Positions 15,027 through 56,245 of a stretch of 64,000 nucleotides of DNA are shown here, one piece after another. The stretch spans positions 3,224,001-3,288,000 of the forward strand of contig NC_089445.1 in assembly GCF_026210795.1 (NCBI RefSeq), in the 5' to 3' direction. The translations under genes and the position numbers were made by a program. The stretch's first letter is position 1. Each line of letters begins with the position of its first letter. Below the pieces are notes generated by a model. It had not been told where the DNA came from and ran no database searches. It was given only the letters and a program-made list of their open reading frames with translations. This stretch comes from Rhizophagus irregularis (Eukaryota; Glomeromycota; Glomeromycetes; Glomerales; Glomeraceae).

Positions 15027-15031
15027 ACATA

Positions 15032-15498: not shown

Positions 15499-15538
15499 AG
15501 ACGATTCAGATGATAAAGAATACTTTTAGAAGGCAGTA

Positions 15539-15859: not shown

Positions 15860-15867
15860 CTTAAGAT

Positions 15868-16760
15868 TTGAAGTCTAAAACCATTCCTTTAATTTGTCGT
15901 AATATATCACACTTAGAGAATTACTATAAGTACTACAATCTCTCTGGAATATCAGTACAAATTCTAAAAAATGAAGAGTACTACAATCTATACAAAAAGC
16001 CCCTAAATGAAAAGTCAACAGAACGCCCAAAGGTAATTGTATGGAAACCAAATGCAACACATCAGGCAGATCTTGCAGAGATGCCAGTTGACCCCAAAGG
16101 ATTCCACTATTTTCTCGTAGTGGTGGAAGTTGCAGGAAAGAAAGTCGATGCAGAACCCCTAAAGGATAAGACTGCAAATAGGGTTCTCAATGGATTTGTT
16201 AAAATCTACAGAAAAAATCGTATTAAGCTATCAACACATCGACTAGAGACAGACTCTGGATCAGAATTCACTAACGACTAGGTACGTGATTTTTTCCTGA
16301 ACAGCCTAGGGGTAATGATGAGGTTCAGAGAGCCAGGTAGACATAAACAGCAATCATATGCTGAAAGAGCTATCCAAGCCATCCAAGAACCCCTTCTCAA
16401 ACGAATGGTGGCACAGGAGTTGAAAACTGGGGTGACATCCGTGGAATGGTCAGAAGATTTCCATAATATAGTGAGTAAAGTAAATGAACTCTGGCAGAGA
16501 AATCCCTCAGATATTCCGATAGGGTCACCCAAAGTATCAAAAAAGACAGACCTCCTCTCTGAAGGAATACGTGTCAAAGTCAAGTTAGATGAACCTATTT
16601 CTGTACTTGGTAACAAACTTCACGGAAAATTTCGTACAGGAGACATAAGATGGAACCCAAATATTCGTGTTATCAAAAAAATGATACTTTCACCCGAACA
16701 GCCTCCTACATATCTCCTTAACGGACCACATGGTCGATTACGTGTATCCAGATGTGCATA
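15868..16760 (+). pseudogene. RVE-type integrase, catalytic part (5' portion)
   Basis: The frame holds the retroviral-like integrase core used by Polintons to insert DNA. Catalytic residues are the Asp in HQADLAEM (residue 68), the Asp in ETDSGSEF (residue 129) and the Glu in QQSYAERAIQ (residue 166), a DD36E spacing. An SH3-like C-terminal domain follows (LHGKFRTGDIRWNPNIRV, LSPEQPPTYLL). One in-frame TAG at 16279-16281 breaks it; a CAG to TAG change would explain it. No ATG precedes the core: the open frame begins at GAT 15865 and TTG 15868, so the start codon is mutated or lies elsewhere. The frame is cut at 16760 by a pogo-type MITE and resumes at 25420 with a chromodomain. Confidence 0.9.
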
Positions 16761-16976
16761 CAGTCAACTCCCTCTATAGTCACTCCCGTTATAGTCACAT
16801 TCTACTATATAGTCACACCAGTTGAATGTTCAAAACACTTTATTATTAAAAACTATCCTATATAGTCACAATCTATCTATAGTCACTATCACACCTATCT
16901 TCAAAAATCTTATATTAAAAAGAACCGTTTATAATCACAGTTATATAAAGAATATATTAAATAACTTGGCATCTAA

Positions 16977-17040
16977 TAATCGTACAAAGATGTATCATAG
17001 CTTATTAGAATCGTCTCACTGAGACGAATCGAATGGTGGT
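16977..17040 (+). repeat. Hairpin-core repeat copy, left of the LINE
   Basis: Contains TCGTCTCACTGAGACGAATC and GAATGGTGGTA, matching the core repeats in the MITE at 8907-9778. The LINE inserted immediately downstream of this copy. Confidence 0.8.
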
Positions 17041-17308
17041 AGTTTTATCCTTTTCCTGTGCAAACAGTCTTATGACTTTATCTTTTATTTATACTTTGGA
17101 TTTCGAAAAGTAATCGAACAATATTACAAAAATAAGAAAATAAACTAATAAAAAATAAAAGAGTAGCTTCACGATTCATACAAGTAAAGAAATCTAAACT
17201 AAAATAAAATTAAAGCAAAGAAAAACTGAACTATTACAGAATCGCATACCCCAACTTTACCCGAAGGCCAGTGTGAGTCAACTATCCAACATCCAAAAAT
17301 CCAGTCCG

Positions 17309-20300
17309 TTACCAGAAAGAAATCCTAAGAGGTTGAACTGTTAAGCGGCGCAGAAAATCCAAGTGCGAGATCCAAGATCCACCCCGAATTATAGAAGAGG
17401 ATATCCAAGAAATCCAGGAATCCTGAGAAACTGACGCCAAAGAAGAGTTGTGTTGTTGTGGAGAAGTAGTATTAGGGAAAGAATTTGTAGATGGGCCACG
17501 TAATTTGGAAGCAGCCGAGATACCCTGCGACTCCTCCCAAGCATGGAAAAGAACATTCCGACACAGCCAAATTTCACCATATAATTCGACTTGGAAGTCA
17601 TTAAGAAGGGGAGAAATAATCTTGTATATAACAGAGAGAGGAAAGTATTGATTCAAAAATGCCGTTAAATGTGCAGGCAACAATCCTCGAGTAAGCCAAA
17701 GACAGGATGAAGAAGGAGCTTCATAGTTCCAGCAATCCAAAGCAAAGAACTCAGTATGAAAGGAATTATCCAAAGATTTCAAGGATAGGAAAGAAGATAA
17801 ACAAGAATCTCTAAATTTAATGACTTCAGACCGGTGTGTTAAACAGGGATTTAAATCTGGTAAAATATAAGGACAAGTCCAAAGATGATTCAAATCTTCA
17901 GGAGCAGAATTACACTGCGGACAGAGCCAGTCAGGAGAATATAAGTAAGGTTTACGTTGTTGAAGAGTAGTTAAGGTAGGCAACATATCCAAAAGAAGTT
18001 TAATACGGAAGATCCAAAACTCAGGACGACCATTCTTATGTGAAACGAAACCTTTAATTTGTGAAAGGCAAAAATATATACCAGCCCAATCAAAAAGTGA
18101 AGGAGAACCAAGAGCAGTAAAACGCGCTAGTGAACAAAAAGATAAAAGAGCACGAGCATCTGCAATAGAGCGGAGAAAATGTCGAATATTCTTGTCAATA
18201 GGCAAGGAGTTAAAAGTCAACAAGCATGGAGCATGACAAAATGTTGAAAGTGGAATATTGGGTTGTAAAGACGAATGAGCAGCTTTTGCCAAAGAATCCG
18301 CTTGTATATTGTAGATGTCATCGCCATGGGCAGGGACTTTAATCAAATCGACATTAAGATTACGGTCCATGATAAGTTGTCGAATAGAAAGCCAAAGAAG
18401 ATGATTAGGTTCTCGGAGCAACTTCGGTGAGAAAGGAGCATCAACAAACCGTGTCCATAGTGAAATTAACTGACTACAATCAGTATGAATAGAGATTGAC
18501 GAGTCACGGGAAAGGGCGTTCAATCCTAATAGAACAGCAGAAATTTCGGAACGCAAAGTGGAAGGAAAGTAAGAAGGGAGATGCATGGAAGAAGATTCCA
18601 GAACAAGTCCAACATCATCAAGAGCAATCCAAGCAGAAGTCATGGAAGAAGGCGAAGAATCATTGGCAGGATGGAACGAACCATCTGTGTACAGAGATTG
18701 CACCGAAAGTGGTAAAATAGTGTCTTCAATTCTATCGATTCTATCCTTAAAGAGAGGAGAAAGAGCGGGAGACGCGTTCAAAAAATGAACAAGAGCCAAG
18801 GAAGTCGCATAACTCCATGAAGTAGATAGAGTAATGAGAAGATAAGCTGCGAAAACTTTGGCATTTCTGGTAGGATAGCCCACAGTATCCGATAGAATTA
18901 CATTAAAAAAGCATTTCTCGCTATTACAGCGTTGTCTGATGGCAGATTTCATGGATAAGGCGGGAATGTTAAGAGCACAACCGGGACAAGGGTCATAGGA
19001 TCGTTCATCAGCCGAGGTAGATACAGGAAGCCAATGGGACATAATAGCCGAGTTTTGTTTCTTATAAGTGATACACACACGACCAACAGATAAAGTTTGA
19101 GTAGCAGAGTCAAGAGTAATAGCCCATTGAGGATAAAAAGAATAATCTTTAACAGTATGATCTAATAAACAAGGAGAAGCTAAAGTAAAAGAAGAATTAA
19201 TAAAGTATGAAGATAAAAGTAAAGTAGAAGAAGAAGAAGAGAGAAAATTTTTATTAATAAAAGTAAACCAATTAGGGATCCGTCCTTTGCGACCAACAAT
19301 GCCAAAATAACGAAGGTCAGGCCAATTCATAAGATGACGTCCACAAGGAGAAACCAACTGAGCAAGCGCAAATATATTCAGGTTTTTCCAAAGTTTCCAA
19401 CTCGATTGAAAAATGGAATGAGGTAGAATAGATCGGAGTGGCAGAGCAGGTTGTAGATCATGCCTCAGAGGCCGGAAGGAAAGAGACCACGTGATGTTCA
19501 AGCGCGAAGAAAACAATAACGAATTAAACAAAGTGTGCGTTCGCAAAGAAACGATCTGTGACCATGGTTCTAAGTTAATAGTAGTCGGGCAACTTTCAGC
19601 ACCCAAATATCCTTGAAGATAGGAGATAGCATAAAGAGCAAAATCTTTGAAATCAGGATGAGTGAAAATTTTTTGCCAAGATGCCATATGGGAAGAAAGA
19701 AAGCGATAGAAAGCATTTTGAATCGAAAAGGGAAGTTTGAGAAATAACAAGGGCAACGGAGTAGTCGTAGCAAGACCAGCTTTTCTTCGAAGTACTGAAA
19801 ACAGGGGCTTGACAATTGATTGAATAGTACTTTCAGAGAGAAGGGTAGTTTGAAGATGAAATTCCAATCGCGGAAGAAGGACAGCATTATAGAGATAGGC
19901 CACATGTTGTGCTAATAATTTCTTCGGTCCCAGGAGAGCTGCCATATCTTTAACCATGGAACGCGCTTATTTGAGAACAAAATCAGAAGAGGCGGATAAG
20001 GAAAACCAAACGCCTAAAAAGCGAAAGGAAGCATGCAAAGATAAAGAAAAAAGGGAAAGAGACAAATCAGAGACTAAAAAAGAAGGTGTAAGATCAAAAA
20101 TAATCTTTGAAGAAGGGGAAGAAGATGAAAGGAGAACATATTTAGCTGAATTAGCTTGAACATTATTTAAAGTATAAAATTCAGCAGTAATAGAAAGACG
20201 GTCTTCTATTCCAGATTTTGAAGAAGCAATAAGTGTAGAATCATCCATAAACGTTAAATGTGAAATTGGTAAAGAATGTTGTTCAAATTCAAGTGGAGAG

Positions 20301-22693
20301 TAATTTAAAAGAGCTGAAGATTTTAAATTAAAAGGATCTCGTGCTTCTTGATTCAAAACAGTGAGTAAGGGATCCAAATAAATAACCCAAAGAAGAGGGG
20401 AAATAATTTCTCCTTGATCGATACCAACACATACTCTATAAGCAGCTGTATCGCCATGACATGTAATTATCTTATTATTTCGTCGTGTAAAAAGATTTAA
20501 AATAAAATGCACTAAAAGTGCAGGGATATGTAACCTATCTAAAGCTAATTTAAGCATATTTAAATCCATAGAATCAAAAGCTTTAGAGATATCTTGAGAA
20601 ACGATCCATAGTTCCTGATCATCAGTAGAGTCATGTTTATGTTGATGAATAATCGCATCCAGCATTTTGATAGGGACATCAGTAGAACCACCAGGTAAAC
20701 CAGCAAAATTACCACCTTGAAGAATTTTATTATCAGCAAGGATGTTGGAAAGACGATTCGTGACGACCTTAACTACACATTTTCGAACTGTTTCCAGAAG
20801 GGTAATAGGTCGAGTGTTCTTAAGTTGAGCATCAAAGTCATGAGGTTTAGGAATAGGATAAACCACGGCTTCACGCCAGTCAGCAGGAATATCACCACGA
20901 GAAAGGCAAGTATTGGCAAGTAAAAGAGAAAATTCCAAGGCTTCACCGGACAAGTGTTTAATCATCTCATAAGAAATTTTTGAAGGGCCGGAAGCTTTAT
21001 TATTTGGCATGGAGGAAATCACAGTAGACCATTCCTGTAGGGAAATAGGCGCCAAAACAGGATCATATAATGAAGCAGACACATTTGCAAGAGGAGTGTA
21101 AGCTTGTTGCCATCGGGCGGGAAATGAAGTGATGGAAGAATAGCGGACCAACGGAGGAGAAACAATCGATTGAAAATGAGAAATAGCAGCTTGTTTAATG
21201 TCCGAAGGATCCGTTAATAAAGTAGGAGTTGAGTCCAGTACGACCAGGACACGATCAAGAACAATCGAGCGTTTTTCTACTGATAGGGCAGAATCTATAA
21301 AGGTGCCAAGCGAGTTCGAAAAGTGTTCGTCACGTAGTGCAGTATAATATTCCACTGAGTCCGTAAGGTGTTGGGCGAATTTAGTAGATAAAAAGGCAGA
21401 AACTAAATTCTTCTGTGATCGTAAAAACGATTTAAATACAGATACAGGGGTTGTAGAATAGGTAGGAACTGAGTAATCAGGGAGTAAGGATGCAAGATTT
21501 TCAAGGTGGGAGGGCAAAGCGGCAGTCATTTGCGCAATCTGAGTAGGCCGATTAGAACGACGAGTAGTAAGGCGATATAAAAATCGATCTAAAAACTTGT
21601 TAATAGCAATAAGTTTAGTTAATTCAGGAGAGTACGAATGTCAGTGTGTATTGGAGACTTTTTGAAAGGGTAAAGTTTCAATTGCAGCACTAATTATGGC
21701 AGCTTTCAATGCATGCCACATACGATCAAGAGAAAGAGAGGAGAAATCAAAATTAGGGTGATATTGTCTATCTAAATAAACTCCAAGAGAATCATCTACT
21801 TCAGTGGTAAAATTATTCCATTGTTCAACTGAAGTGGAAGCGTAAGAGAAAATAGTACGCAATTCTTTTTTTTGTTTAAGACGAGATTTAGCCAAAATAG
21901 CTAGGCAAGAACTGAAGTCAAAAACAGTTGAAAGAACTTTGTGATCTGTAAAAGGACGATCAAGGAGATCCGGGCAAGTAACCACTTGCGAAAAAAGACC
22001 AGGGGCAGGAAAACCAGGTGAGGACCAAATATAATCCAGTCTTGAAGATCCATTATCATGAAAAAAGGTGGGATCAGGACCATTTGTAGAGGAGTGAGCT
22101 TGATGATCGGTAAAAAACCAAGAAGAAAGCAAGCGAAGAAGCTTAAAATGATTAGGTGAATAATTAGAATGAGCGATTACATCAGCATTGAAGTCGCCAA
22201 GAATAACTACAAAATAATTATTAGCTCGGGCATAATCGAGCCAAGAAAGAAGTTTGGCAATAAGATCATTGCAAATAGATTGATGAACAGAACCAGAAGG
22301 GGGATAATATATAGAAATAATAGAAATTTTAGTTTGATGAAAGAACAAGTCTAATTTAAGAAGTCGACCGTTCCAAGGATCAATTGTTTGAACATGTTTG
22401 TGAAGGGAATTTCGTAACAAAATACCAACACCATCATGAGGGCGAAAAGAAGATGAACAAGCCCAATAGGATTTAAAGTGATGTTGGGAGTGTTCGTTTT
22501 TGAAAATAAATTTTGCATTTGAAGGGGAAAGACGCGTATCATTAATAGATAAAGCACCAAAAGAGGAGTGGAGAAAAAAATTAAGTAAATGTTGTTGTCG
22601 AACTGGGGAACATAAACCATTAACATTTAATTGACCAAATTTAATAAGGGGAGAGGGGTGGGGGGAAAAATTATGTTTATTGTTGTCCATCAT
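17309..22693 (-). pseudogene. LINE ORF2: endonuclease, reverse transcriptase, RNase H
   Basis: One frame from ATG 22693 to 17309 (1,795 codons) broken by two stops: a TGA at 21641-21643 and a TAA at 19967-19969. The N-terminal part is an APE-type endonuclease (FGQLNVNGL, VVILGDFNADV, SRLDYIWSS, FTDHKVLST). The middle is the reverse transcriptase (NKASGPSKISYEM, QDISKAFDSM, GIDQGEIISPLLW and catalytic FMDD in place of YADD). The last part has an RNase H domain (LYTDGSFHPA, RSEISAVLLGL, IHTDCSQL, QADSLAKAAH) and a zf-RVT knuckle (CPQCNSAPEDLNHLWTC). All three segments share one frame, so the stops are point mutations, not fusions of separate genes. Both fit a C to T change. Confidence 0.92.
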
Positions 22694-22742
22694 TATTACA
22701 CACTGATAAATCGGTAATAAAGAAGGGGAAAAAAGGGAACAA

Positions 22743-24763
22743 TTATTGATTAGCTTGGCCTTGTTGCCGAGCTAAGATGAGGTTGTTTTGTTGGATTCCT
22801 TCTTTAATCGAGCCAGCCAAAGAGGCAACAGTATCGGAAAGAGAGGAGAGACGCTGTTCCATATCAATAGGGGAGGAAGGAGCGATGTTGGAAGGTGGAA
22901 TGGGAGCAAAATGAGGAATCGGGGAAAAACCACTTGTTGATTGCAAAGGGGAGAATTAACATCAACGAGGATATTATTATCAGTTCGATTCACTGTATCA
23001 TCCCATCCTTGCATAGAGGAAGGGATGTAGGAAGGAGGTTTAGCGACAAAAGGTCCAGGAATAGGAGTACGAGCAGCCATAGCAGATTCCAAATTAGTGA
23101 TGCGGCTGTTCATAGAAGCAAATTGTGTGGTAAGAAGGGCTAATTCTTCAACTACTTTTTCAAGAGCAGCACCAATAGATTTCCAATCAGTAAGCACAGT
23201 AGGAGGAGCAGGGTATGCAACATCCATGCCATCAGCATAGTGATCAAGTTCATTTGCATCAGGAATACGACGACGTTGATTATTATTGTTGTTGTTAAGA
23301 TTGTCGCGATTCCATGGTCGATGTTGAGAACGAGAACGAGATTGTTGTCGGTTATTAGGTCTGGATTTAGAGCGATGGCGAGAAGCATTGGTACGGCTTT
23401 GTCCATCATTATTGTTATCAGGGCGGGCAAAACGGTTATGTCGTTTAGCAGGATGAGAAGGAGGTAGATGCTTATTATATAAAGCACGTAATTTATCATT
23501 AGATTGCCAAGGGCGAGAAGGGCGATTAGGTCTAGATGAAGAACCACATCGATCAGGGTTACAATTAGGGCGACCACATCGATGACAAAGAGAAGTGACT
23601 TCATCCGGAGAATGCCAGGTAAGGCCAACTTTCTTGAGGGCACATGAAATAGATTTAGCATTTTCCATAGCCGTTTCAGAGGCAAAATGGCAATAGGCGT
23701 AAGGTTTGGGATTGTAAGAATTCATAGAGAAGGGAACATTGATAGATTTAGCGGAAATTTCATCGGCAATTTTAGCAAGATCGACCGCTATAGTGCCACG
23801 CGGGAGACCGGCAAGTAAAGCAACATAAGCGCGTCTTTCAGCGCGTTGTTCAGGTGAGAAAGTAGCGGGGCAGATACGCAAACAATGTCCTCCACAAAGG
23901 ACGCCCCAGGTAGAGTCAAGGTTCTGTAAAGCACCAGTAGATTCAAAGGTAATGTATGCAGTACGATAAAGTTTAGATAAACGGGTATGGCAACGAGTAA
24001 TATTGCCATAACGAGAAAAGGTACCACGCAAAAGAGCGTCAGTAAGAAAAAGGGGGATATCGGTAACCACCAGGGTACGCGCGTGTTCATCAGCCTTAAT
24101 AGCCTGGGGGTCATATGCATGGAAATGCAAGCCAAATAAAGAATCCATAGGGGAGGCTGTGACGTTGTCAAGATCTTCTTTTTTTCGGAAGTGGACGATG
24201 ATCCTCTTCAAATCGTTGGATCCACTACACGTGGCATGACTACCATAAGAGGAGAACAAGGAAAGTTGTCGATCAACTGCGTCGCACGCATCGCGGTTCG
24301 AAGCGAAGTGATTCCAAAAGCCATCAACGTCATTAGGAGCGGCCGAGGCGTAGAAAAGTGTAGGTTGAGATTGTACTGCAGCTTGAGACGCGTCCGGAGA
24401 GGCAGCACGTTCAGGGAAGGAGACTGCGGGAGTAATTTCAGGGCTTTTGCCTTTATCGTTGTTGTTAGCAGGGGCGTGTTGCGAAGCATCGAGAGAGAAG
24501 GTATCGGGTTGAGAAGGTATCTCAGCGGAAGTTGTCTCAACAGGGCCAGGAGGTGTGAGAGGTTTATCAACATCCATGACAGAGTCTTCAGCACTGACTC
24601 TGGTACGTTTATTAGTAGAGGTGGTCAAAGGTGGAGTGTTCGAAGGGCCAGACATAGAGGAACCTTGACCAGAAACGTTGCCAGTTGGAGAGCTAGAGGC
24701 AGGACGTTTAGATGTAGTATCTTTGTTAGACTGGTTATTTTTCTTTTTGTTATCTTTACCCAT
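22743..24763 (-). pseudogene. LINE ORF1: RRM and zinc-knuckle RNA-binding protein
   Basis: Starts at ATG 24763 (MGKDNKKKNNQSNKD). A Ser/Thr/Pro-rich N-terminus is followed by an RRM-like fold around residues 230-305 (RTLVVTDIPLFLTDALLRG, then a TAYITFES strand), a CCHC-like knuckle (CHRCGRPNCNPDRC, about residue 395) and an Arg/Ser/Asn-rich basic stretch (RSKSRPNNRQQSRSRS). The open frame ends at 22772, but the natural C-terminus, a helical segment with MEQRLSSLSDTVASLAGSI, lies in another frame at 22743-22946. A single-base indel near 22946-22960 explains this. ORF1 proteins bind LINE RNA and chaperone target-primed reverse transcription. Confidence 0.85.
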
Positions 24764-24989
24764 TTGTAAAGTGTCGTAGTTATCTAAAATAAAGAAAATA
24801 TAAAGAAAAAGTAATAAAAAACTTCGAAAAAATTTTTTATTTTTTTCGTAAATATTGTCAAGTGAGCAGAACGGGAGAGAGTTAGTTTTATCCTTTTCCG
24901 ATAACTGGCTGACGAGTTATTCAACAAAATGTTAAACATCGGCATTATAATATTTCTTGATTTACGTTTACTGCGCCATTTAACATTTT

Positions 24990-25250
24990 GCTAGATTTTT
25001 CGGTACCTAGTGATTGTAAAAAGACGATTTATAGCTCGTTGGAATCGCCTCATCGAGACGAATCGAATGGTGGTAAGCTCATCTCTCTGTGATCAATATT
25101 GACGGAGTTATTACTTAAAAACCATTAATATTTTTTTAATTTCGGAAATTGATCTAGTGATTGGATTTCGACTTATTTTATACAATTAGAACCGTCTCAT
25201 CAAGACGAATCGAATGGCGGTAAGATCATTTCTCTACGATTAATATTGGC
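24990..25250 (+). repeat. Two hairpin-core repeat copies, right of the LINE
   Basis: Copies at about 25012-25073 (GCCTCATCGAGACGAATCG, GAATGGTGGTAAG) and 25188-25226 (CGTCTCATCAAGACGAATCG). Both are followed by TCTCT and a CGATCAATATTGACGGAGTT-like segment. They belong to the pogo-type MITE and match the repeats in the hAT-type MITE at 8907-9778. Confidence 0.78.
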
Positions 25251-25419
25251 GAAGTTACGATACAATAAAGTTTTAAGTATAATTCTAGCCAAAATTATGT
25301 TAATTTTTGGCCGGAATTATGATATACAAATATAAGAAATTTTTTATATAGTCACATCTCTTTATAATCACCAAATATGGACTGTCCCAAATGTGTGACT
25401 ATAAAGAGAGTTGACTGTA

Positions 25420-25654
25420 TACCCAAAAGAAATTGCAAGTAGTTCCTATTAATGAAAAGCCTCCACCTGACTCTGTGATAAGAGGACAACCTGAAAGATT
25501 TGTTCCTGAGCAGATACTTCGGCATCGCATTAGGAAAGGTCAACATCAGTACTTGGTCAAGTGGGAGCGCTATCCAGACACTGAGGCTACTTGGGAACCT
25601 GCTGACCGGTTAGAGGAGAATGTTCCTGACTTAATTCGCAAATTTTGGGAATAA
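25420..25654 (+). pseudogene. Integrase C-terminal chromodomain (3' portion)
   Basis: This is the continuation of the integrase at 15868-16760. It encodes a linker (QVVPINEKPPPDSVIRG) and a chromodomain with the aromatic-cage and core motifs QYLVKWERYPDTEATWEPAD, ending at TAA 25652-25654. Chromodomains on integrases guide insertion toward methylated histone tails. The stop lies 24 bp from the stop of the convergent protease frame, a tight tail-to-tail arrangement that argues both belong to the same element. The frame is intact in this portion. Confidence 0.9.
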
Positions 25655-25678: not shown

Positions 25679-26446
25679 TTATTTTTTGTCTCCTTGATTA
25701 ACATCAGGAACTATTGGGATAAAAACATTCTTCCCATCACAGGTAAGGGCTATATGTTCACATGATTCATGGACATCATAATTGTAACGTTTCAGACACG
25801 TTTGGCTTAACCCAATCTCCCTATGCTTGTATCCATCTAAAACTGCAAGGTCCTCAGTGATAATACATTCAGGAGTGAATTTGATTGAAACTCCTTTTAC
25901 CATGCCGAATGTCCTACCTGTTCCTGGAGCACCAGATATGTTGTGTGTAATACTCTTGTCGATATTCAACTCTAATTCCTTAGCAGCTTCTCTCTGAATA
26001 AAAGACGCATTAGCACAAGTGTCTGCTAAACACTGAATTGCTGTCCCATTAACCTCCCCATCCAGTGCTAAAAGATCTTTAGTATTCTCCAAACGAGCTA
26101 TATCAATATTCATAGGATCGTCTTCCCTAATATCCTCTTCTTATTCCTCCTCAGCTAGATCCTGAACCTCTGAAATCTCTGTGACTTTTCTAGCAGACAT
26201 CATCTCCTCCTGAAGAATCTCACAGAGTAATTTCCTAAAGTCTGCAGACCTTAACAGGTTTAATAAGTCATTCTTAGTAACAGCTTTTGCAGGTATAGAC
26301 TTACTACCAGTAACTTTTACAGGAATCTTAACAGGGGTTGCTTTGCCCCTTAAGGGCACACTAGGAGAGCTAACTGCTGTCTTATTCGGCGATGACTTAA
26401 GAAGTTTTGAGATACTCGAACCTACTTTTTTTTTAACCCAACACAA
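25679..26446 (-). pseudogene. Retropepsin-like aspartic protease, end of the Gag-Pro polyprotein
   Basis: The 144-codon stretch below 26113 has the retropepsin pattern: LDGEVNGTAIQCLADTCANA with the catalytic Asp at residue 31 (DTC in place of DTG or DTA), a flap-like glycine region (SGAPGTGRTFG) and a second hydrophobic half (ITEDLAVLDGYKHREIGLS). Upstream in the same frame is a Lys/Pro/Ser-rich linker (26141-26446), separated by one TAA at about 26138-26140. The linker joins the Gag part through a T-rich homopolymer at 26429-26437, where a frameshift is needed. In Ty3-type elements such a protease cleaves Gag; here the expected partner is the Gag-like protein just upstream. Protease class is firm, the altered active-site triplet may reflect decay. 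Confidence 0.82.
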
Positions 26447-26997
26447 ACCATATAGATATCACCATCTTTTTCTCTCAATTCTACCTTTTCACCAAAACTC
26501 ACAGTATCAATGTCCATAGCATCATCATTAAGATCGAGGTTTCTCATTGCTTGGGCCAAATCCAGATCATCACGTCTATCTTTAGCTTTCTGAAGTTAAT
26601 TTGTAAGTATTTTAGACGTCCCACGTTTATATCCCATAATAAGATCAATAGCATTTTGATGATCATACAAAGTCATAACAGGAGCATCAGGGTCATCACC
26701 AACATCAGGTTCTACATAACCATCATCCCAATCAGGATCCTGATGATCCTGAATAATACGTCTCTGTGGTTTTGGTCAAACAGGTTTAATCTGCTGTCTA
26801 TAGACTGGTAGATTACGAACTGGTCGAGCCTGTAATTGTTTAAATTGCACCTGAAAATTCTTGGTAAGTTCCTCAGCTTAAGCCTTAAGTAACTCTTGTA
26901 ATTGTTCTTGAGTAACCCCAGATGACTTTGATGTCAGTACGACAGGTTCCTGTTTTCCTAACGGAGGTTGAGTTACATCACTGTAATCTGCTCGAAG

Positions 26998-27852
26998 TCA
27001 TCGATTTCTATTTTGTAATCCCAAGCGCATTTCAGCCCTTCTCCGTTCTAAATTTCTCAGATGTTTAACCAAATCATCAGGATTAAGATTACTAAACCTT
27101 TCTGCTTCAAAAATATTATCAGCCGAAAGACCTCTAAAGAACTGGTCGATAATAAGATCATCAGTTAGTTTTAGTAATTTTCCAGCCCTCTTTACAGTTC
27201 TATAAAATGCATCAACTGGCTCATTTTCCTGATAAAGACTGTTAAAACGGATATGTTTCTTTTTATCTAAAATAGTTGGGAATTGTGTTCTAAGCCAATA
27301 AAGCACCTGGTTAGGTTTAATACCTGGAAAAACTATAGGCTGATTATTATTAGCAGCAACACCAGCATCTGCAGTAGCTGGAGCAGCAGTATCTGTCAGA
27401 CGAGCACCAGCTCTTCCCCAAGCTTTATCTCCACCTATTAAATCATGAGTAGGAATAAATGCTGCTCTAATAGTTGCTAATGCATTATTTATATCTCTTG
27501 AATAGATTTGTGCTTCAGACCCATTTACATAGGTACCTGCATTTGGTCCTCCTGCACCTTCTGGTATTACTAATGCTACAAAAGCAGCTAAATTAACTCC
27601 ACCTCTTGAAGTGATACCAGAAAGTTCCCAATTTTTTCCTGTAATTTCTCGATCAAACCATTCAGCCGCTTCACCAGCCATGCAGCTTCTAAGTATACCC
27701 ATAGCTCTTTTCCAAGACTCTGGTGGCCCTCCAGCAGCGTATGGATTAAGATTGATAGTATCAAGATAACCCATATAAAGCCTAACAAATGTATCAATAT
27801 CATCAGTAGCTTTACCCTCAAAAATCGGCAATCCTATCGCAGTGGTAGCCAT
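26998..27852 (-). pseudogene. Gag-like capsid protein (Ty3 Gag-type core)
   Basis: A 284-residue open frame from ATG 27852. The N-terminal half has the Gag signature PIFEGKATDDIDTFVRLY and an amphipathic stretch (ILRSCMAGEAAEWFDREI). The C-terminal half has the retrotransposon Gag motif: FNSLYQENEPVDAFYRTVKR, LTDDLIIDQFFRGLS, then RFSNLNPDDLVKHLRNLERR. This matches the two-lobed helical capsid domain of Ty3/Gypsy Gag. Beyond the stop at 26998 a Gln/Pro-rich tail with several in-frame stops leads into the protease. No reverse transcriptase, RNase H or LTR is found nearby, and the unit is transcribed opposite to the integrase, so a simple nested Gypsy element is unlikely. It may be the structural protein of this element. 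Confidence 0.75.
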
Positions 27853-27905
27853 ATCGTCTCTAGTGGATTGTTTAAAAGAGGTGGAGGAGGGTTCAATTGT
27901 CTAAT

Positions 27906-28631
27906 TCAAAACCATTGTACCTGAATTCTAAGAGCAGCTATCTGTTGGAAAAGTCTATTCCTAAGTCTCCCTAATGTCTGAATCCTAAAACACACCCTAT
28001 TATTAGCATGTGCTAGCTGTGCATTAACCTGTCCAAGTTGCGCATTAGCCAATACAAGTTGTCCTCCAGTCTGAGTAGCCCTCAGCCGCCAATGATTTAG
28101 AAGGATATTACCACGATTCACAGCATTTTGAGCCTCATTACGATCCCTTACTGCTTGAGTATAATCTGCTTGTAATACATTACGTTCATATCATACCTGA
28201 TTACGTTCACCTATAGCCTGTTGACGAAGCTCTATTATAGTATCATAATCTCTTTGCAGGTTATAGTTTTCTTCTATGAAATTATCATTGGCAGCACGTA
28301 TAATAACTAATTGACATTCTAAATTAGTAAACGTTTCATCAAATGCATTTATCTTACCCTGTGCAAAAACTAACAAATCTTTTGTAATACCAAGTTCTTC
28401 ATGTTTTACTTTACAGCGATACATTAATATATTAATAATATGTTTGATTTGATTATTTGCCTCCTGTATCTCTGAATCAACAGTTAAACGACCCCTGGTA
28501 GTCAATAAATTTGCATGAGCCTTAAGTATTCTAACTAATTCATCATCATTTTCTTCATTGGTCAAGTGTGCAGGAGGCGGTCTAATAGGTTCTGAAGGAG
28601 TATAAACTGGAATTGGTGTTGATGTCGACAT
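27906..28631 (-). pseudogene. N-terminal coiled-coil region of the Gag-like polyprotein
   Basis: Starts at ATG 28631 (MSTSTPIPVYTPSEP, proline-rich), 31 bp from the divergent ATPase start. A long helical, Gln/Asn-rich coiled coil follows (residues 30-145). A TGA at 28191-28193 breaks it, after which the same frame continues with a further coiled coil (ANAQLGQVNAQLAHANNRV) to a TGA at 27906. The Gag-like ATG at 27852 is in a different frame just downstream, after a proline-rich hinge. Either a frameshift joined these parts originally or they were two overlapping genes. N-terminal coiled coils are known in some Gag proteins as assembly domains, so one polyprotein is my preferred reading. Confidence 0.62.
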
Positions 28632-28662
28632 AGTATTTAAACTAAGTTAGAATAAAATTCAA
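28632..28662. promoter_or_regulatory. Compact divergent intergenic region
   Basis: Only 31 bp separate the start of the Gag-like gene (-) and the packaging ATPase gene (+). A shared, bidirectional promoter would have to overlap the coding starts. No TATA-like box with support from position is evident, so this is inferred from spacing alone. Confidence 0.35.
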
Positions 28663-29886
28663 ATGGATCTTTATGTATACAATTTGGACGAGTACACGAC
28701 CGACTCAAGACAAGGCAATGAGTTTGCCCCAACATGGCCCTTTCGATTAGCCATAGCAGGTAGCTCAGACTCAGGTAAGACAACTATGATGATTAACTTG
28801 TTAATGGGTGACAAGAAAGCAAAGGAGGATGGTAATCGGTATGTACTATGTGATGCAGTACTTTTAGTTGGCAGATATCTTGACGAGCCGAAGTGAACAG
28901 TTGTACATGATTTTTTCAAAGAGGAGAAGATCCCATTCACTGCAGTAACCCATAGTGAGATTCCAGAGATTGACTCCTTCGACCCTACTCAAGCTATTCT
29001 GGTAATTTTCGAGGATCTGATGGATGCACCTAAAAAAATCCAGGATCTCATCACTGGATACTTCACACATGGACGACACAAAAATATTTCATGTATTTAT
29101 GTAGCCCATAGATTCTTTGCCATTCCTAAGGCTATTCGAGAAAATGTTAACTACATCTCACTGCATGGAGGTCATGGGAGCCTTACAGATACTAAGAGAA
29201 TCATCCGCCTATATACAGAAGAATCAGAGTCATTAGCACCAGTAATTGATGATCTTACTCTGCAACGTAAATTTGTAGTGTTTGATCTTAGACGGTCCAA
29301 GAGTGATCCACTGTCCATTCGAGTAAAATGGGATACTAGTCTCAGTTCGATCACAGAGCAATCTCAGTTCGATCCTAGTTCAATCTCAGTTCAATCTCAG
29401 TTTGATTCAAGTTTGAACCCAGTTCGATCTGAGTCTGAACCCAATTCGATCATAGTTCAATCCAAGTTTAGTCCCTATGGTCAGAAAGCTGTATCTGAAG
29501 CAAAAAAAGGTGGACACTTGATTGAATTTGCTCGGGTATTTCCATCCCCTAAAGAATGTAAACATTTACTTGTACCTGGTGTCTTAGCCAAGAATACAGA
29601 TACCTGGATTAAATATGTCTTTCGAAAAGCTTATGGACTCTCTGGTAAAACCTTGGGAAGGGACTTTCAGGATTTCTTAGCAAAAGTACAGGGTAGAACT
29701 GCAAAGACTGAAACTTTGAAAGCTGAGAATGTGAAGAAGTTATTCTCCCGATATGAAGCCCTGAAGTCTAGTCGCCCTCTGGATAATAAAAAAATAATAG
29801 AAGGTATTGAAGTCCTTCTACAGATCTTTTCTAAGGGCCACATGGACCGTCGAGCATTACAAGTAGGGATTAATAGTATCTTGTGA
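28663..29886 (+). pseudogene. A32/FtsK-HerA-type genome packaging ATPase
   Basis: A 407-codon frame from ATG 28663. Walker A is AGSSDSGKT (residues 32-40). Walker B is ILVIFEDLM (about residues 112-120). The C-terminal core contains GRHKNISCIYVAHRFFAIPK, the conserved GRHxxIS sensor region of Polinton and virophage packaging ATPases, then FVVFDLRRS. A single TGA (codon 78, 28894-28896) breaks it; a TGG or CGA original fits. Downstream is a Ser/Gln/Phe-rich stretch with imperfect tandem repeats (about residues 226-268), then a helical tail (FRKAYGLSGKTLGRDFQDF). It would pump element DNA into a preformed shell. It is divergent from the Gag-like gene, and its last 17 bp overlap the next gene on the other strand. 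Confidence 0.9.
29340..29475 (+). repeat. Imperfect tandem repeat within the ATPase gene
   Basis: The words CAGTTCGATC, CAGTTCAATC and CAGTTTGATT recur about nine times between 29340 and 29475, encoding a Ser/Gln/Phe/Asp-rich linker between the ATPase core and its C-terminal tail. Confidence 0.7.
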
Positions 29887-30430
29887 GAATACCAAGTAAT
29901 TCATCTGCAGAAACTCTAAGAATCATAGCACTTTTTTTACGGCCCTCAAAGTCAATCCTTAACATCTTAGCCTTCAACCCTATTGCTCCTAAAGCACAAG
30001 AAGCAAAGTTCTTAGTCATTGGATTACTTACATGATTTACATAGTTCTCATAGAATGTAGTGAAAGGCTCGTCGATACCATCTGGATATGTATCCCTTAG
30101 AAATTGATATAAAGCAATTTCTCCACTGTCACAACCTATGGCTATAAGCTGTTCGAGAAGTCACTTCCTAATATCTTCATATGGCTCTCCATCCATAATT
30201 TTCATATCCAGTCTTTGTGCAAACAATTGTGTAAAGTCCACATTACTTGCCCGACGAATGATCTGAACTAACTTATCCCTAGCAAGTCCTAAAGCTTGTA
30301 GAGGATCATTCTCGTCACTAATCTTCTTTATAATCTGTCTGTATAATACACTGGATAATCCTCTATGTGCTGTTTTTGGAGTGATTACTCCACAGTTTTG
30401 GCACTGGTTTATTACGATTGATGTTAACAT
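29870..30430 (-). pseudogene. Unknown 186-codon protein with N-terminal CxxC
   Basis: ATG 30430 opens a frame with QCQNCGVITP near the N-terminus, then a mostly helical protein (SVLYRQIIKKISDENDPL, LGLARDKLVQIIRRASNV). A TGA at 30161-30163 breaks it; the same frame continues with IALYQFLRDTYPDGIDEP and FASCALGAIGLKAKMLRIDF to TAA 29870-29872. It overlaps the 3' end of the ATPase gene by 17 bp on the opposite strand. I do not recognise the family. Its place next to the packaging ATPase suggests a structural or DNA-handling role, which is inference only. Confidence 0.7.
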
Positions 30431-30475
30431 GGCTATCTTTCTTTATGTAAAAAAGAATTATTCAAAATTAAGTAA

Positions 30476-30841
30476 CTATTCAGAGCAGTTCTTGCACAAC
30501 TTGTCCGTTAAGTCACTTGGGCTTACAGGCATGAGACATTCCCTACACAACTCAATATTAAGCTCTGTAAGTCTCGGGGCATGGTCCTCCAAAGTTCATA
30601 GATGACCGGAAGGACCGATAGTTGTCATATCAGTCATATCCTGCTGTAAGATAAAATCATCATATTCATCTTGGTCAGCATGAATAACAGTCCTGATTTG
30701 TTGTGTATCATTGAAAGTTAACCGCTGCCCATCAAGATTTTCTTCATTATAGCGTGTTTCATTGATGATTTCCTCTATAAGCTCCTCTTCTTCATAATGG
30801 ACAAGGTAGTAGTCCTCAACTACCTCATAGTAGGACCCCGA
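30476..30841 (-). pseudogene. Acidic protein with C-terminal zinc ribbon
   Basis: The frame encodes a strongly acidic stretch (YYEVVEDYYLVHYEEEEL), a middle with DQDEYDDFILQQDMTDMTTI, one TGA (at about 30597-30599) and a C-terminal zinc ribbon ELCRECLMPVSPSDLTDKLC ending KNCSE before TAG 30476-30478. No in-frame ATG was found; an AG acceptor-like CTATTTCAG precedes the first codons, so an upstream exon or a lost start is possible. It lies 45 bp upstream of the 186-codon gene in the same orientation. Function unknown; acidic plus zinc-ribbon architecture hints at a transcription-related factor. Confidence 0.55.
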
Positions 30842-31044
30842 GCAATACTGAAATAGGTAACAAGAAATAACGCGTAGAATAGGCTAAAATAATCATGAAA
30901 ATCTTTCCTTTTTTAGATAAATTTTGATAACGTTGGTAAGAAATATATTACTTTATTTAGTAACTGACTGACATTATCATAATTCCGGCCCTGAAAAAAT
31001 GCGTAGAGCTAATAGTAAAATTTTGCCAATTTCCTATGACCTAT

Positions 31045-31296
31045 TTATATATTGTTCGAGGTCCTCTCATAGTCACTCTCAATCAGTCTATGATATGTTC
31101 TAGTACCACGTCAAAGATAACGTCCTGTATCTGTATTAAAATATACAGGTTGCTCCTCGGGTGGAGGTGCAGTTTGTCTACAGACAAGCCTTCCATCAAT
31201 ATAATCATGGGATTCCATAACTATTCGATTAAAGGTATCTCTACCGATAATAATTGGACATCCAGTTATAGGGTTAGCTATATAAGAGTAAGACAT
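31045..31296 (-). pseudogene. Small protein with two 2-cysteine-adaptor-like repeats
   Basis: An 83-codon frame from ATG 31296. The first unit has NPITGCPIIIGRDTFNRIV, and a second unit has FNTDTGRYL followed, after a TGA at 31111-31113, by RGTRTYHRLI. The pattern NPxTGRxIxxGTxTYxRL is that of the viral 2-cysteine adaptor domain, known from large DNA viruses where it is attached to kinases, proteases and other proteins. A single CGT follows the first unit (LVCRQTAPPPEEQP linker). The ends are at ATG 31296 and TAA 31045-31047. Domain assignment is by motif and is moderately sure. Confidence 0.6.
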
Positions 31297-31360
31297 GTCT
31301 TTTTTCTGTATGTGTCTACATACCTAATAGTTTTCTTCAATTTATAATAACCAAGTGACA

Positions 31361-31600
31361 TGGTCATCAGTCCTTATCAAAAAATACAAGAATACCTGAT
31401 GATAAGGTTACATGGTCATCAGTCCTTGTCGAAAAATGCAAGGATATCTGATGATAAGGTTACATGGTCATCAGTCCTTATTAAAAAATGCAAGGATACC
31501 TGATGATAAGGTTACATGGTCATCAATCCTTGTCGAAAAATGCAAGGATACCTGATGATAAGGTTACATTGTCATCAGCCCTTGTTGTTGAAAAATACAA
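31361..31600 (+). repeat. 52-bp minisatellite, about 4.5 copies
   Basis: Units start at 31361, 31413, 31465, 31517 and 31569 with TGGTCATCAGTCCTT. Each ends with CTGATGATAAGGTTACA, so every unit can form a hairpin (CATCAG...CTGATG and CCTT...AAGG). It lies between two minus-strand genes of the Polinton-like element. Confidence 0.93.
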
Positions 31601-32142: not shown

Positions 32143-32580
32143 TTATGCAAGAAGTTCTGCTAAGGTTTTCTCAGCCTCATTCATAGTGACAGCTCGCTTT
32201 GAGGGACCTGTTGATGTGTCCTTAGTCACATTATAATACAACTTGAAGAGGGCCTCAAGTTTGTCTAGAAGAGCTTGTTTATTCTTGTATGATTCACGAA
32301 TCTTTGCTATCTTAGCAGTATATGCTGCATTATCTGGGAAGAGTTTTCTGGCCACGAACTTCACATATGATACAGGAGACTTTGCTGTCTGGATTCTCTT
32401 GATATACTTCACATAATCCTGGACAAGGTAGCTGGTTTTGCTAAACCCAGATACTAATGCGACTACTATAGTGTCTTTCAATACACGGATAATCTTGAGG
32501 ACAGTTTCATCAGAGACAATGGTGAACTGATTGCGTGATGCATCATAAATAACTTCATCACTAATGCTATATGTTGACAT
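32143..32580 (-). CDS. Unknown 145-residue helical protein, intact
   Basis: A complete frame from ATG 32580 to TAA-type stop at 32143, with no internal damage, one of the few intact genes of the element. It is predicted to be mostly helical and basic (YVKYIKRIQTAKSPVSYVKF, LLDKLEALFKLYYN). A Thr/Ser patch (TKDTSTGPSKRAVT) precedes a short helix at the C-terminus. No family recognised. It sits just downstream of the polymerase gene in the same orientation. A virion or DNA-binding role is possible but not supported by motif. Confidence 0.6.
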   Translation of the reverse strand: MSTYSISDEVIYDASRNQFTIVSDETVLKIIRVLKDTIVVALVSGFSKTSYLVQDYVKYIKRIQTAKSPVSYVKFVARKLFPDNAAYTAKIAKIRESYKNKQALLDKLEALFKLYYNVTKDTSTGPSKRAVTMNEAEKTLAELLA

Positions 32581-33439
32581 GATTCCTTATACTTTTTTGT
32601 ACTTTGTAATAAATAGGAATCTTCAAATTGACTTTACATTCAAGGAAGAAAAAATATATATACCTACTGTAAACCCAACCGCATTCTTGGCAATCATGTC
32701 CAGATAACCTTGTTTGCATTTTTCATATGGCAGTATCCTGCGGTTTCAAACTTGAGAGCTTTCAATGCTTTGGATGCATTTTCTGGACAAGTGATAAGTG
32801 TAGGACTACTCGGCTGTTCCTCTAGAATAAATCCATCTGTATGGATGCGTCGTACTTTATCCTTATATGTAAGGTTGCTTGCTGAAACCCATTTGGCCCA
32901 ACGCGAAATGCCGAAACTCGTATATAGTAGCGAAACTGCTGAAATGCCGAAATGCCGAAATCGGCCGAAACTGCGAAACTGCCAAAACTTGCGAAACTGC
33001 CAAAACTTGCGAAACTGCAAAACCTCATTTATCCATAGTTTCGGCATAATACATAATAATATTTTATATGAGTTTCGCATAGTTTCGGCATTCTTTATTT
33101 TTTTTTACTTACACTTCAATAAAAACATCAACATATTCTATTTTATTGTTTTATTGTATTTTTTATTTTATTGTAATAACAATAAATTTCTTATAAATCA
33201 ATGATATGCCTTTAAGTTCATGTCCTAAAAGTAAAAAAATATATATTTCTTTACGCAATTAAGTATAACTCCCCATCATCCAAAAATCCGACAACCTAAA
33301 AAAATAAAACAAAGAAAGAAACATTAATATGTTTCTTTAAAATATTAAGAAATATTTCCCCTTTTCCTCTAACTTACATTCAAGGCCAACAGCTCATCTT
33401 AGAATTCCGGCAACCTAAAGTAGAAGAAAATGTTAGAAT

Positions 33440-33616
33440 TATACATGCTGCCCAAATTATTTTGGGATGTCATAATTATAATTTGGGATGCCGTAATTCA
33501 TTCAGTTTATATATAATTTACTATATAAAGTACCAAAATAATTTGGGATGCCATAATTGAATTTGGGATTTTACTTATAATTACGGCAGCCCAAAATAAT
33601 TTGGGTGGCATGTATA
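33440..33616. mobile_element. 177-bp hAT-type MITE nested in the previous MITE
   Basis: The exact 8-bp duplication GTTAGAAT (33432-33439 and 33617-33624) flanks ends TATACATGCTGCCC and GGGTGGCATGTATA. Inverted CCAAATTATTTTGGG words fill most of the element, so it is nearly a complete palindrome. Confidence 0.93.
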
Positions 33617-34107
33617 GTTAGAATGGTTCTTGATATTAAAAACACACAACTACACACCACTCAAACACCTACCCGCATATCCCACTTCAAGAGAAAGCCA
33701 GAAATCTAAAAAATAAAAAAATAATGTTGTTAATGTTGTTTATAACGCCATTTCATATTATACACCCACCCAAACTTCACTTACCGCATATTCTACAGCC
33801 GAAAATCTAAAAAAAGATAAAAAAAGAATGTCGTCAGTATTGTTTTATAATGTCATTTCATATTATACATCCATCCAAACTACTTACCACATACTTCACT
33901 CTAAGGAAGGACCAAAAACTGCCCTTACTTCGTTCCAATAGAATCCACATTCGTCCAAAGAGTCCGGTAACCTAAAAAAGATAGAGAAAGAAACGTTACT
34001 AACGTTTCTTTAATATTAAAAATATACCCGCCATTTTTACAACTTACATTCTAAATCCAGTTCGTCCAAGGAGTCCAGTAACCTAAAAAATAAAACCAAA
34101 AAAAAAA

Positions 34108-34390
34108 AATCGGTTTAGAAAACCGAAAAAGAAATATATAAAAAATTAAAAAATTTCAGTTTTAGAAAAGCCGAAAAAAAATATATAAAAAAAATTTTTT
34201 TTAAGAAAATTTCGGTTTTAGAAAACCGAAAAAGAAATATATAAAAAAAAAATTTTTTTAAAAAAAATTTCGGTTTAGAAAGCCGGAAAAGAAATATAAA
34301 AAAAAAATTTTGGTTTAAAAAACTGAAAAAAAAATAATTAAAAATAATTTTTTTAATTATTTTTTTATTAAAAAAAATTTTGGCCGATAA
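34108..34390 (+). repeat. Tandem array of AAACCGAAAAAGAAATATAT units
   Basis: About five degenerate copies of a unit of roughly 50 bp containing TTTCGGTTTTAGAAAACCG, a short palindrome, followed by AAAAAGAAATATATAAAAAA. It lies inside the 1.7-kb MITE. Confidence 0.8.
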
Positions 34391-36359
34391 AAAAAAATAG
34401 ATTGATTGGCCAGTTTTTATCAATAGATTATCAAAATGCCGAAACTATAGTATGTCATATGATATACTATGCTGAAACGCCGAAACAGTTTCAGCAGTTT
34501 TGGCATTTCAGGTGATTTTGCAAAACTAGTTTCGGCAGTTTCGCATACGCCGTTCTGCCGAAACCCTAGTTTTGGCAAGCAACCTTACTTATATGGTTCT
34601 AATAACTCTGAAATCATCTTCCGTTCATGTGCTAATAAGAATGGAGCGATCCTAGGATACTCACCCTTGAAGGGACTACCTGGGTTTGTTAACTGGAATC
34701 GCCACTGGTCAGATTCTACTGGTATGATGGAGTCAAGTGTGTGGCCTTCTGGAAACTTGAATGGATCTGTTTGATTTGTGGTGAGTGTCTTGTAATTGCG
34801 TTTCCTCTGGCAGAGTGCTCCCCATAATGTATTGAGAACTCTCTTTGCAACATGACCGGCCACGCCACCCTGGTTCTTTATATTGAAGAGAAAGTGAACA
34901 TACTCACCAAATATTACAGTCCCAGGAATTCTTGCTTCTCTGTCATATATCAAGGCATTTGGCTTTCCATCCTGGATTAACTGTATATCGAGACCAAGTT
35001 TCTTTGCTCGTTGTAAGTCAATGAATGTATAGACTCCCCTCTTATTCTGTCAGAAGAGAATGTCATTACCACTTACCTTAGCACGAAATAATCCATACAA
35101 GGCATAACCTCTGTAGTCTACAAAGTCTTTGAGTATTTGAAACTTACCTTGTCGGATTGGAAAGTTTACATTCAATTGCTGGATACTTGGATACAAACTT
35201 GTCACGTCATATTGCCTTCCATAACCCTTCCATTCATTGTCTGCCCAGATAAGACCTCCTATCATAGCATCATTTATTCACTCTGCTTCTATAGGGTCAA
35301 GAGGATCATTGGCTGGAACCCCTACACTAAACCGTTCAAAAAGCCAGAGAGCAGTTCTCTTGTACGACCAGTTGTGGTAAGATAAGTCGATTCCTAGACT
35401 GAACTTCTTTGTAGCCTGTAGGAAGGAATCCCGCTCTTCATGGATCCTCTGGTATGTTTCCTCAAGTGTTTCATATATTCCAGTTTTACGATTCTTCTCA
35501 ATAGGAATGAAGGAGTAACTATCAGAGTTCTTACCATTCTGAAACTGTCCAACTGTAAGAGACTTAACTGTCTTACCATTGTATATTGTTACTACATTAT
35601 TAACCCCATCTTCACGATAAACAAAGGGAGACTTTTGTTTTCTATCTAATTTACTAGGGTGGAGTCTTCCGGGATTCAGTGCAAGAGAGTAGTGGCCTTC
35701 AGACAGGATAAGGGTTGCGCGTCTGTTAGACTTGCTCTTGGAAATTCGAGTAGAATCCCCTACAATATTAAGTGTAAGGCTTCCTGCAAGTTGTTCAACC
35801 TTATCCATATTTGAGACTGGAACTGAAGCATCACGATTAAGACCTAATGCCTTTTTGATATACTCAGGCTTTTTTATAGTCTCGGGTATTTTAGAGAATA
35901 TACTATAGATATGCTTCAGGCATTCATACAGGCAATCATTTAGCTCCCCATTGCATCCTCCTGCAACCGGTGGAGCACCTCTCACATAAATTATGAATCG
36001 TTCAAAGTAATCAGGATCTGCATTATCTGGTAGTTGTGCTACATCATAATGGTCTAATAGTGAAAAGAGGCTGGCTGGTTGGTTTCCTGATGTCCATCTA
36101 CCAGGTTTCCAGTTTTCATAGGGGAGCAGGATCTGAAATTTATAAGTTGGATACCGGGATTAGAATTGCTGTCCAAGTCTGGCAATAGCTCATCTAGAAA
36201 ATCTTGCGCCTGAATACTGTAGTTCTTTGATATCTGGTCTTGTAGGTAAAGCACGTGCAATTTTTGAATAGGCCATTTGATATAACTATGAATTGTATTC
36301 AATTGTAATATAGGTTTTTTATATAAAAAATATAAAATAACTAAGAGGCGCTTATCTTA

Positions 36360-56240: not shown

Positions 56241-56245
56241 ACATA

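Follow-up and report, generated by a model that had tools for sequence, protein, structure and literature searches.

Gag-like and retropepsin genes within a Polinton-like element of the arbuscular mycorrhizal fungus Rhizophagus irregularis

A stretch of 64,000 nucleotides from Rhizophagus irregularis (NCBI RefSeq assembly GCF_026210795.1, contig NC_089445.1, positions 3,224,001 to 3,288,000 of the forward strand; the whole stretch is hereafter called the window, and positions are counted from its first letter) raises the question of why a Gag-like gene and a retropepsin gene lie inside an element that otherwise resembles a Polinton. In our view this element is probably a self-synthesising DNA transposon of Polinton-like type, now dead, in which Gag and retropepsin replace the double-jelly-roll capsid and the adenovirus-type protease. 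The wider proposal, that there is a fungal Polinton-like group (comprising at least lineages A/B, C and D, described below) in which a Gag shell is loaded by an A32-type ATPase without reverse transcription, seems to us evenly balanced, and within it the packaging of element DNA by Gag is what we infer.

The minus strand of the window holds three consecutive frames at 25679-28646, namely a coiled-coil open reading frame (ORF), a gag-like frame and a retropepsin (Pro) frame. The coiled-coil ORF (27906-28646) has its ATG at 28631 and stops at 28191 and 27906; in most open copies elsewhere it is 239-270 amino acids (aa) long, and its frame overlaps the start of the Gag frame. Gag (26459-27900) begins with an open capsid-like piece (27001-27900), which is followed by stops at 26998, 26878, 26776 and 26596. 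Comparison with other copies places the gag/pro boundary at 26422-26439, where a run of nine A precedes a G and the gag stop and Pro continues in the -1 frame; the upstream part of the Pro frame (26141-26458) is ended by a TAA at 26141 (Pro frames are 255-260 aa in other copies), and the retropepsin piece proper occupies 25679-26140. On the plus strand, diverging from these genes, lies an A32-type packaging ATPase (28651-29886), which is interrupted by a stop at 28894 and measures 400-411 aa where copies are open.

The case that the gag-like frame is a real gag rests on a profile comparison with a control, on shuffled sequences and on a profile search of the PDB. Six element Gags compared as a profile with four host Gypsy gags gave a probability of 92% (E 5.8e-7), and an unrelated profile used as the negative control gave 0.1%. 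On a model built from the host Gypsy gags, the best-domain score of every element Gag (6/6) beat 1000 shuffles of its own sequence, and the whole-sequence score did so for 5/6. The search of the PDB (177,635 sequences) with Gag returned four matches, the top two being, in the expected order, the capsid domains of PEG10 (E 0.55) and Arc (E 0.9). The retropepsin piece (25682-26140, minus strand) scores above the cut-offs of two Pfam families (Asp_protease_2, 33.6 bits, cut-off 24.3; gag-asp_proteas, 28.7 bits, cut-off 28.2), and at E<=10 it matches three PDB entries (best E 0.062), two of them DDI1 retropepsin domains and the third a 'UBA domain-containing protein' that we take to be a Ddi1 relative. 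Its active site reads DTCA, and not the usual DT/SG, in the A/B copies that the motif scan matched, the window included; DTCA is therefore a lineage trait and not damage to the window copy. The same scan found DSGA in the lineage C copies L006 and L007. Both genes that a sequence-only reading of this locus had named are thus supported by Pfam, profile comparison and shuffles, with Gag itself below the Pfam cut-off (Retrotrans_gag, 16.0 bits against 24.1, for the minus-strand piece 27001-27900). The interval in which that reading had placed them, 25679-28631, runs from the protease stop to the ATG of the coiled-coil ORF, but it contains three genes and not two.

What ties the pair to the element is its position across the genome. 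Our genome searches (146.7 Mb) scored part of the candidates, so that all counts are lower bounds; matches on the same strand were merged into loci across gaps of up to 4 kb for the A/B counts and of 3 to 8 kb for the lineage C counts, and gag loci are called A-type at 60% identity or more and B-type at 38-59%. There are at least 135 matches to the gag piece, at least 126 to the ATPase piece, at least 152 to the protease piece and at least 111 to the integrase. A divergent ATPase lies within 3 kb of 53 of the 59 A-type and 49 of the 53 B-type gag loci (102/112 together), and the distance between the two matches is exactly 1000 bp in 32/53 of the A-type loci. Conversely, gag lies within 5 kb of 104/111 ATPase loci, leaving seven without it, and A/B gag lies within 6 kb of 103/111 integrase matches; integrase is found beside 100/113 gag loci, this last count having used 113 loci merged by eye and the ATPase-gag count 112 A/B loci. 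Among full-length A-type gag matches, 32/42 are free of stops. This genome-wide spacing argues that the Gag-protease pair belongs to the element and is not a landed retrotransposon, and chance insertion of a Gypsy fragment is rejected as the principal explanation on the same counts. The six A-type loci without an ATPase within 3 kb are a broken piece, or have adjoining protease and integrase matches, or an ATPase at 4-7 kb, and the four such B-type loci have adjoining protease or integrase matches or an ATPase at 4.5 or 8.7 kb. A solo gag domesticated by the host was also considered and rejected: none occurred among the gag matches scored, and the loci lacking a near ATPase, read by eye, are broken or have element genes nearby.

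The arrangement of the frames is conserved as well. Pro lies in the -1 frame and overlaps the end of Gag in 13 of the 15 fetched copies in which both frames are readable, the exceptions being L001, where the two share one frame, and L025, where the shift goes the other way; both deviate in the length of the A-run. In 16/18 copies from lineages A and B, among them the window copy, the overlap holds the nine-A run, the G and the gag stop. In its form the overlap resembles the -1 frameshift sites of retroelements and may serve as one. Ratios of nonsynonymous to synonymous substitution (dN/dS) were calculated pairwise, as ratios of means, from the open copies among the 17 at hand (10 A, 7 B), and lean low because only open copies entered and these were few for gag (4 A and 5 B, giving 6, 10 and 20 non-independent pairs, without a neutral control). 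For the A-A, B-B and A-B comparisons, respectively, they are 0.35, 0.28 and 0.40 for gag, 0.31, 0.25 and 0.16 for the protease, 0.31, 0.38 and 0.56 for the coiled coil, and 0.15, 0.16 and 0.09 for the ATPase, the lowest among the four genes measured. Between A and B, the protease is 85% and the ATPase 87% identical, and Gag and the coiled coil are 54% identical, as if these two were fast-evolving shell genes or had been exchanged.

The element that surrounds the pair in the window spans 15032-56240 (41.2 kb), as established by comparison of copies and direct reading of its ends. It is bounded by terminal inverted repeats (TIRs) on the left (15032-15500, plus strand, about 470 bp) and right (55770-56240, minus strand), which when aligned show 22 differences in 481 columns, 19 of them transitions (K2P distance 0.048), and it is flanked by a target-site duplication (TSD), ACATA, at 15027-15031 and again at 56241-56245. 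The TSD is 5 bp long and perfect in 3/3 copies in which both flanks were read. Later inserts make up about two thirds of the window element, and the full spans of two other copies are 14,404 and 14,392 bp; there are copies of 14.4 kb whose genes are open, and the copy on C24 is young, since its 583-bp TIRs carry a single difference. A full-length copy on C13 (1638893-1653284; L009, L011) sits within another copy, at a site that matches 36772-36776 of the window, with a 5-bp duplication.

The gene content of this element, compiled from separate pieces of several copies with some small ORFs left outside the Pfam scan, bears out the Polinton-like setting that the sequence-only reading had proposed: an A32 ATPase, a DNA_pol_B_2 polymerase, an rve integrase with chromodomain and a helicase lie between the TIRs and TSDs. 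That reading had also named other copies as a test, and in most of the loci counted the Gag-protease pair does keep its place beside ATPase and integrase. It had held, too, that a nearby reverse transcriptase (RT) with a pair of long terminal repeats (LTRs) would make the locus a nested Gypsy remnant; the sole RT of the interval (19970-21640) belongs to a nested long interspersed nuclear element (LINE), and the termini of the element are inverted. No RT was found in the ORFs scanned from other A copies, and no LTRs were found in the A element. Neither a double-jelly-roll capsid nor a penton gave a Pfam match among the A-element ORFs scanned, a search that remote cases could escape, and the same ORFs gave no match to an adenovirus-type cysteine protease. 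In other copies the integrase with its chromodomain measures 376 aa, Gag 492, the protease 257, the coiled coil 270, the ATPase 411, the polymerase 630, the D5/DUF5906 helicase 824 and an F-box-like ORF (sub-threshold) 137 aa, and in the pieces that cover the 14.4-kb A element no unassigned ORF exceeds 300 aa.

From left to right, the window copy opens with a small zinc-ribbon ORF (DUF5679, 15542-15874, minus strand; 56.4 bits, cut-off 27), of which a similar stretch occurs in L005. The integrase core follows (rve, 15865-16760, plus strand; 91% identical to the L001 integrase), with three TAG inside, and is severed from its C-terminus by a nested insert; the genome-search match at its own locus (C17:3239865-3240794) has three TAG within the first 310 residues. 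The C-terminal chromodomain piece lies at 25418-25654 (plus strand), and the open relative (L001:1355-2482) scores 36.6 bits for rve and 62.3 bits for Chromo. Pox_A32 reaches 37 bits in L001 and 25.2 bits in the larger of the window's ATPase pieces (cut-off 22.8). Beyond the ATPase, all on the minus strand, come ORF190 (29870-30442, in two pieces), a broken ORF202 region (30476-31323) whose borders were set by offset from L001, where a 2-cysteine adaptor motif scores 18.9 bits (cut-off 22), and ORF158 (32143-32586), which is open; neither ORF190 nor ORF158 has a Pfam family over cut-off. Between the ORF202 and F-box regions stands a 52-bp tandem array (31358-31585, 4.4 copies); L001 and L003 seem to have fewer of its units, to judge from overlapping matches. 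The family B DNA polymerase is present as pieces at 34585-36356 (minus strand), with the far end of the gene at about 32697-32869, and DNA_pol_B_2 scores 22.8 bits in the window piece and 32.1 bits in L003 (cut-off 25.8). The D5/DUF5906 helicase and its C-terminal pieces (36360-38229, minus strand) are under cut-off in the window and over it in L003; copy comparison assigns an N-terminal piece to 44477-45136 (minus strand). A small ORF near the right end (45397-45846, minus strand), also without a Pfam family over cut-off, lies in a stretch that is conserved in L003 (45206-45621).

Diverged repeats, many stops and nested transposons mark the window copy as old and dead. The integrase gene is interrupted by a nested element with 31-bp TIR arms (16761-25417), which has TA at both sides and contains the LINE with its RRM-bearing ORF1, RT and RNase H ORFs. 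Further inserts are a small one within the ORF202 region (30832-31065), one in the polymerase gene (32870-34587), where the flanking matches overlap by 8 bp, a Plavaka-type transposon (38230-44484), and one or more inserts with a tnp2 (Transposase_21) ORF at 48120-50471 (45842-55746, borders approximate). The window copy is 95.4% alike to L001 across 5406 sites, and 202/248 differences are transitions. At 40 sites CpG in L001 corresponds to TpG or CpA in the window, with ten in the reverse direction, and the comparison with L016 gives 29 such sites and 11 in reverse; when other copies are paired, the counts are 7 and 6 (L016, L001) and 8 and 5 (L019, L001). It may fairly be supposed from this substitution pattern that the window copy decayed via methylated CpG.

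Related Gags accompany other polymerases in the same genome. Lineage C (L006, L007, L014) combines integrase, a Gag with an N-terminal coiled coil, protease and a DNA_pol_B polymerase, which in L007 carries an exonuclease domain; the L006 Gag has a CX2CX4HX4C knuckle (16.4 bits, cut-off 20.8). An identification of these distant gag matches (31-32%) as ordinary Gypsy elements was rejected, as the scanned ORFs of the three loci include polymerase and integrase but no RT. A C-gag or a weak protease match lies within 12 kb of 25/34 C-type polymerase loci (the protease matches being those listed). Beside C elements (L036, L037) and C2 elements (L038, L039) lies an A32 ATPase with 43-44% identity to the lineage A enzyme, its Pfam match being over cut-off in L036 and L038 and under it in L037 and L039. 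Counting the ATPases among the matches listed, and of these the ones outside A/B copies, chosen by eye, one lies within 8 kb of 28/51 C-gag loci, for a chance expectation of about 0.3; at the five C-type loci from the A-gag search (5/5) no A/B-type ATPase lies within 10 kb. Inverted repeats at the ends of lineage C were sought by comparing L035 with L036 and others, and none were returned. Lineage C2, described from L038 and L039 only, has a Gag that shares about 60% identity with the lineage C Gag over most of its length, with the A32 ATPase nearby, and its mix of genes suggests an exchange of modules. Lineage D (L041) combines a PF03175 polymerase with integrase, Gag and protease; the PF03175 matches of the L040 and L041 polymerase ORFs were over cut-off in one Pfam scan and unlisted in another, and the first is used here. 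The L041 Gag, in which a zinc knuckle and Retrotrans_gag are both sub-threshold, is 34% identical to that of C (E 7e-31) and 32% to that of A (E 1e-22), and the protease is 33% identical to that of C. A PolB-like ORF of 1376 aa (PF03175) at L040:4444-8571, on C16, bears an endonuclease VII motif and a sub-threshold C2H2 finger and adjoins a small ORF resembling one in lineage C (L036). Because the Gags of A, C and D resemble one another and an A-type Gag showed no significant similarity to one host Gypsy ORF by BLAST, the element Gags look like one family that parted from Gypsy long ago.

On these grounds we propose, as the simplest way in which this gene set could work, that Gag would be translated from its own frame, with the protease a minor product made via a change to the -1 frame at the nine-A run, and that Gag would then assemble into a shell. 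The A32 ATPase would load this shell with element DNA copied by the element's own polymerase, together with the helicase, the retropepsin would mature the shell, and the chromodomain integrase would subsequently insert the DNA and make the 5-bp duplication. As for the origin, it is likeliest that gag-pro was captured once, long ago, from a retroelement of Ty3/Gypsy type, before the A-D split, and that modules were exchanged afterwards. The retention of the ATPase with the lowest dN/dS is as expected if packaging continues with another shell.

Several observations weigh against this proposal. Retrotrans_gag is below cut-off or absent in all element Gags scanned, no zinc knuckle is listed for the A Gags scanned with Pfam, the whole-sequence score of the L007 Gag falls under some of its shuffles, the PDB matches of both Gag and protease are all non-significant, and single-sequence fold models of the two were uninformative (mean pLDDT, the predicted local distance difference test, 34.6 and 29.9). 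The activity of the A/B protease is uncertain because DTCA replaces the D-T/S-G of retropepsins, and the protease matches of lineages C (Asp_protease) and D are under cut-off. The modules are also less regularly joined outside A/B: a C-type polymerase lies within 12 kb of 16/51 C-gag loci and is wanting at 35/51, 20/51 have no A32 ATPase within 15 kb among the matches listed, none of the ORFs scanned in the C2 slices (L038, L039) matched a protease, an integrase or a polymerase, and the lineage D slice (L041) showed no ATPase. A pattern search of viral contigs found no relative of Gag, ATPase or polymerase, and a highly diverged small capsid may be present among the small unassigned ORFs. The support consists of genes, linkage, constraint and insertion marks, from which particle, protein and packaged DNA are predicted.

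The empty search of viral contigs would also suit a role within the cell, comparable to that of non-infectious Ty particles: Gag and protease would, for example, transfer element DNA or RNA between nuclei or shield replication intermediates, and no DNA would be packaged by the ATPase. Ty3-type Gags do form intracellular particles; against such a role, the A32 ATPase has the lowest dN/dS (0.09-0.16) and adjoins gag in A, B and part of C, and we hold this explanation to be unlikely, if worth keeping in sight. We think it decidedly improbable that a Gypsy fragment was inserted once in one Polinton-like copy and that gag-pro was then a mere passenger in the amplification of the composite. Ordinary Gypsy gag-pol elements do abound in this genome (at least 150 matches, with RT among the scanned ORFs of 3/4 of those fetched), and nested transposons crowd the window. 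A passenger of this kind is however hard to reconcile with dN/dS of 0.16-0.40 for Gag and protease in open copies, with a frame overlap and A-run common to lineages A and B, with related Gag-protease-integrase sets in C and D, whose polymerases differ, with an A element in which neither LTR nor RT was found, or with the lack of a significant BLAST match to the host Gypsy ORF. That the capsid is an unrecognised jelly-roll protein among the small ORFs, with Gag and protease in an accessory or host-interaction role, is very improbable, for although ORF190, ORF202, ORF158 and the right-end ORF have no Pfam family above cut-off, these candidates measure 128-202 aa, double-jelly-roll proteins are usually well above that size, and every ORF longer than 300 aa in the element pieces covered is assigned.

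The element proposed here, with Gag and retropepsin in the place of capsid and adenovirus-type protease, shares features with several known systems. Like Polintons/Mavericks and Polinton-like viruses, it has an rve integrase with a chromodomain, an A32-type ATPase, a family B polymerase, long TIRs and a short TSD; unlike Polintons, it has Gag and retropepsin, with no double-jelly-roll capsid, penton or adenovirus-type protease found, a D5-type helicase, and a TSD of 5 bp, that of Polintons being usually 6 bp. With the Ty3/Gypsy chromoviruses it shares Gag, retropepsin and an integrase with chromodomain, and in Ty3/Gypsy, as in this element, the TSD is 5 bp and the gag and pro frames overlap; it differs in that no LTRs, RT or RNase H were found, a DNA polymerase and a packaging ATPase being present instead. 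The Caulimoviridae place a Gag-derived shell and a retropepsin around double-stranded DNA, as is proposed for this element, but they copy themselves via RNA with an RT and are not known to encode an A32 ATPase, an integrase or a family B polymerase. A retroelement-type integrase like that of the element also occurs in Ginger DNA transposons, which are not known to have Gag, polymerase or ATPase. Owing to their jelly-roll capsid, Polintons are regarded as standing at the root of many DNA viruses of eukaryotes.

One account, in its accessible part, gives the usual Polinton a set of jelly-roll capsid proteins with a protease of its own, reports nine elements that lack the capsid gene together with protease and ATPase, and does not mention Gag (PMC4028283); those capsid-less elements have no ATPase, whereas the Rhizophagus element retains it. 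Early Polintons of Rhizophagus were described, in the portion available of PMC7805220, as having no detectable capsid gene, which was read as loss of the viral lifestyle, and Polintons are there called the ancestors of most eukaryotic DNA viruses. According to the sections at hand of two further papers, Maverick is one of the elements that have recently expanded in R. irregularis, where its low-methylation copies are numerous (PMC8647823), and one of the newly curated families (PMC11075540). Excerpts of PMC6431247 name Ginger in a figure legend and mention Gag for Gypsy-like elements only, an excerpt of PMC4409740 has Rhizophagus in a figure legend, and Gag is absent from the main text of PMC4046053. 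Our search of the full-text literature, seen as titles and the beginnings of abstracts and with subscription papers and repeat libraries outside its range, returned no description of a Gag-retropepsin pair in Polinton-like elements; among the papers listed, the words Polinton, retropepsin and Gag came together only in PMC12910113, a paper on Drosophila virilis.

The supposedly capsid-less elements of Rhizophagus retain a packaging ATPase plus a gag and a retropepsin gene under constraint. If Gag is the shell, capsid types would be exchangeable across two major groups of elements that integrate into eukaryotic genomes, and an A32 ATPase would be able to load DNA into a Gag shell. Whether these elements have lost their virion becomes a matter for observation, through a search for particles in an arbuscular mycorrhizal fungus.

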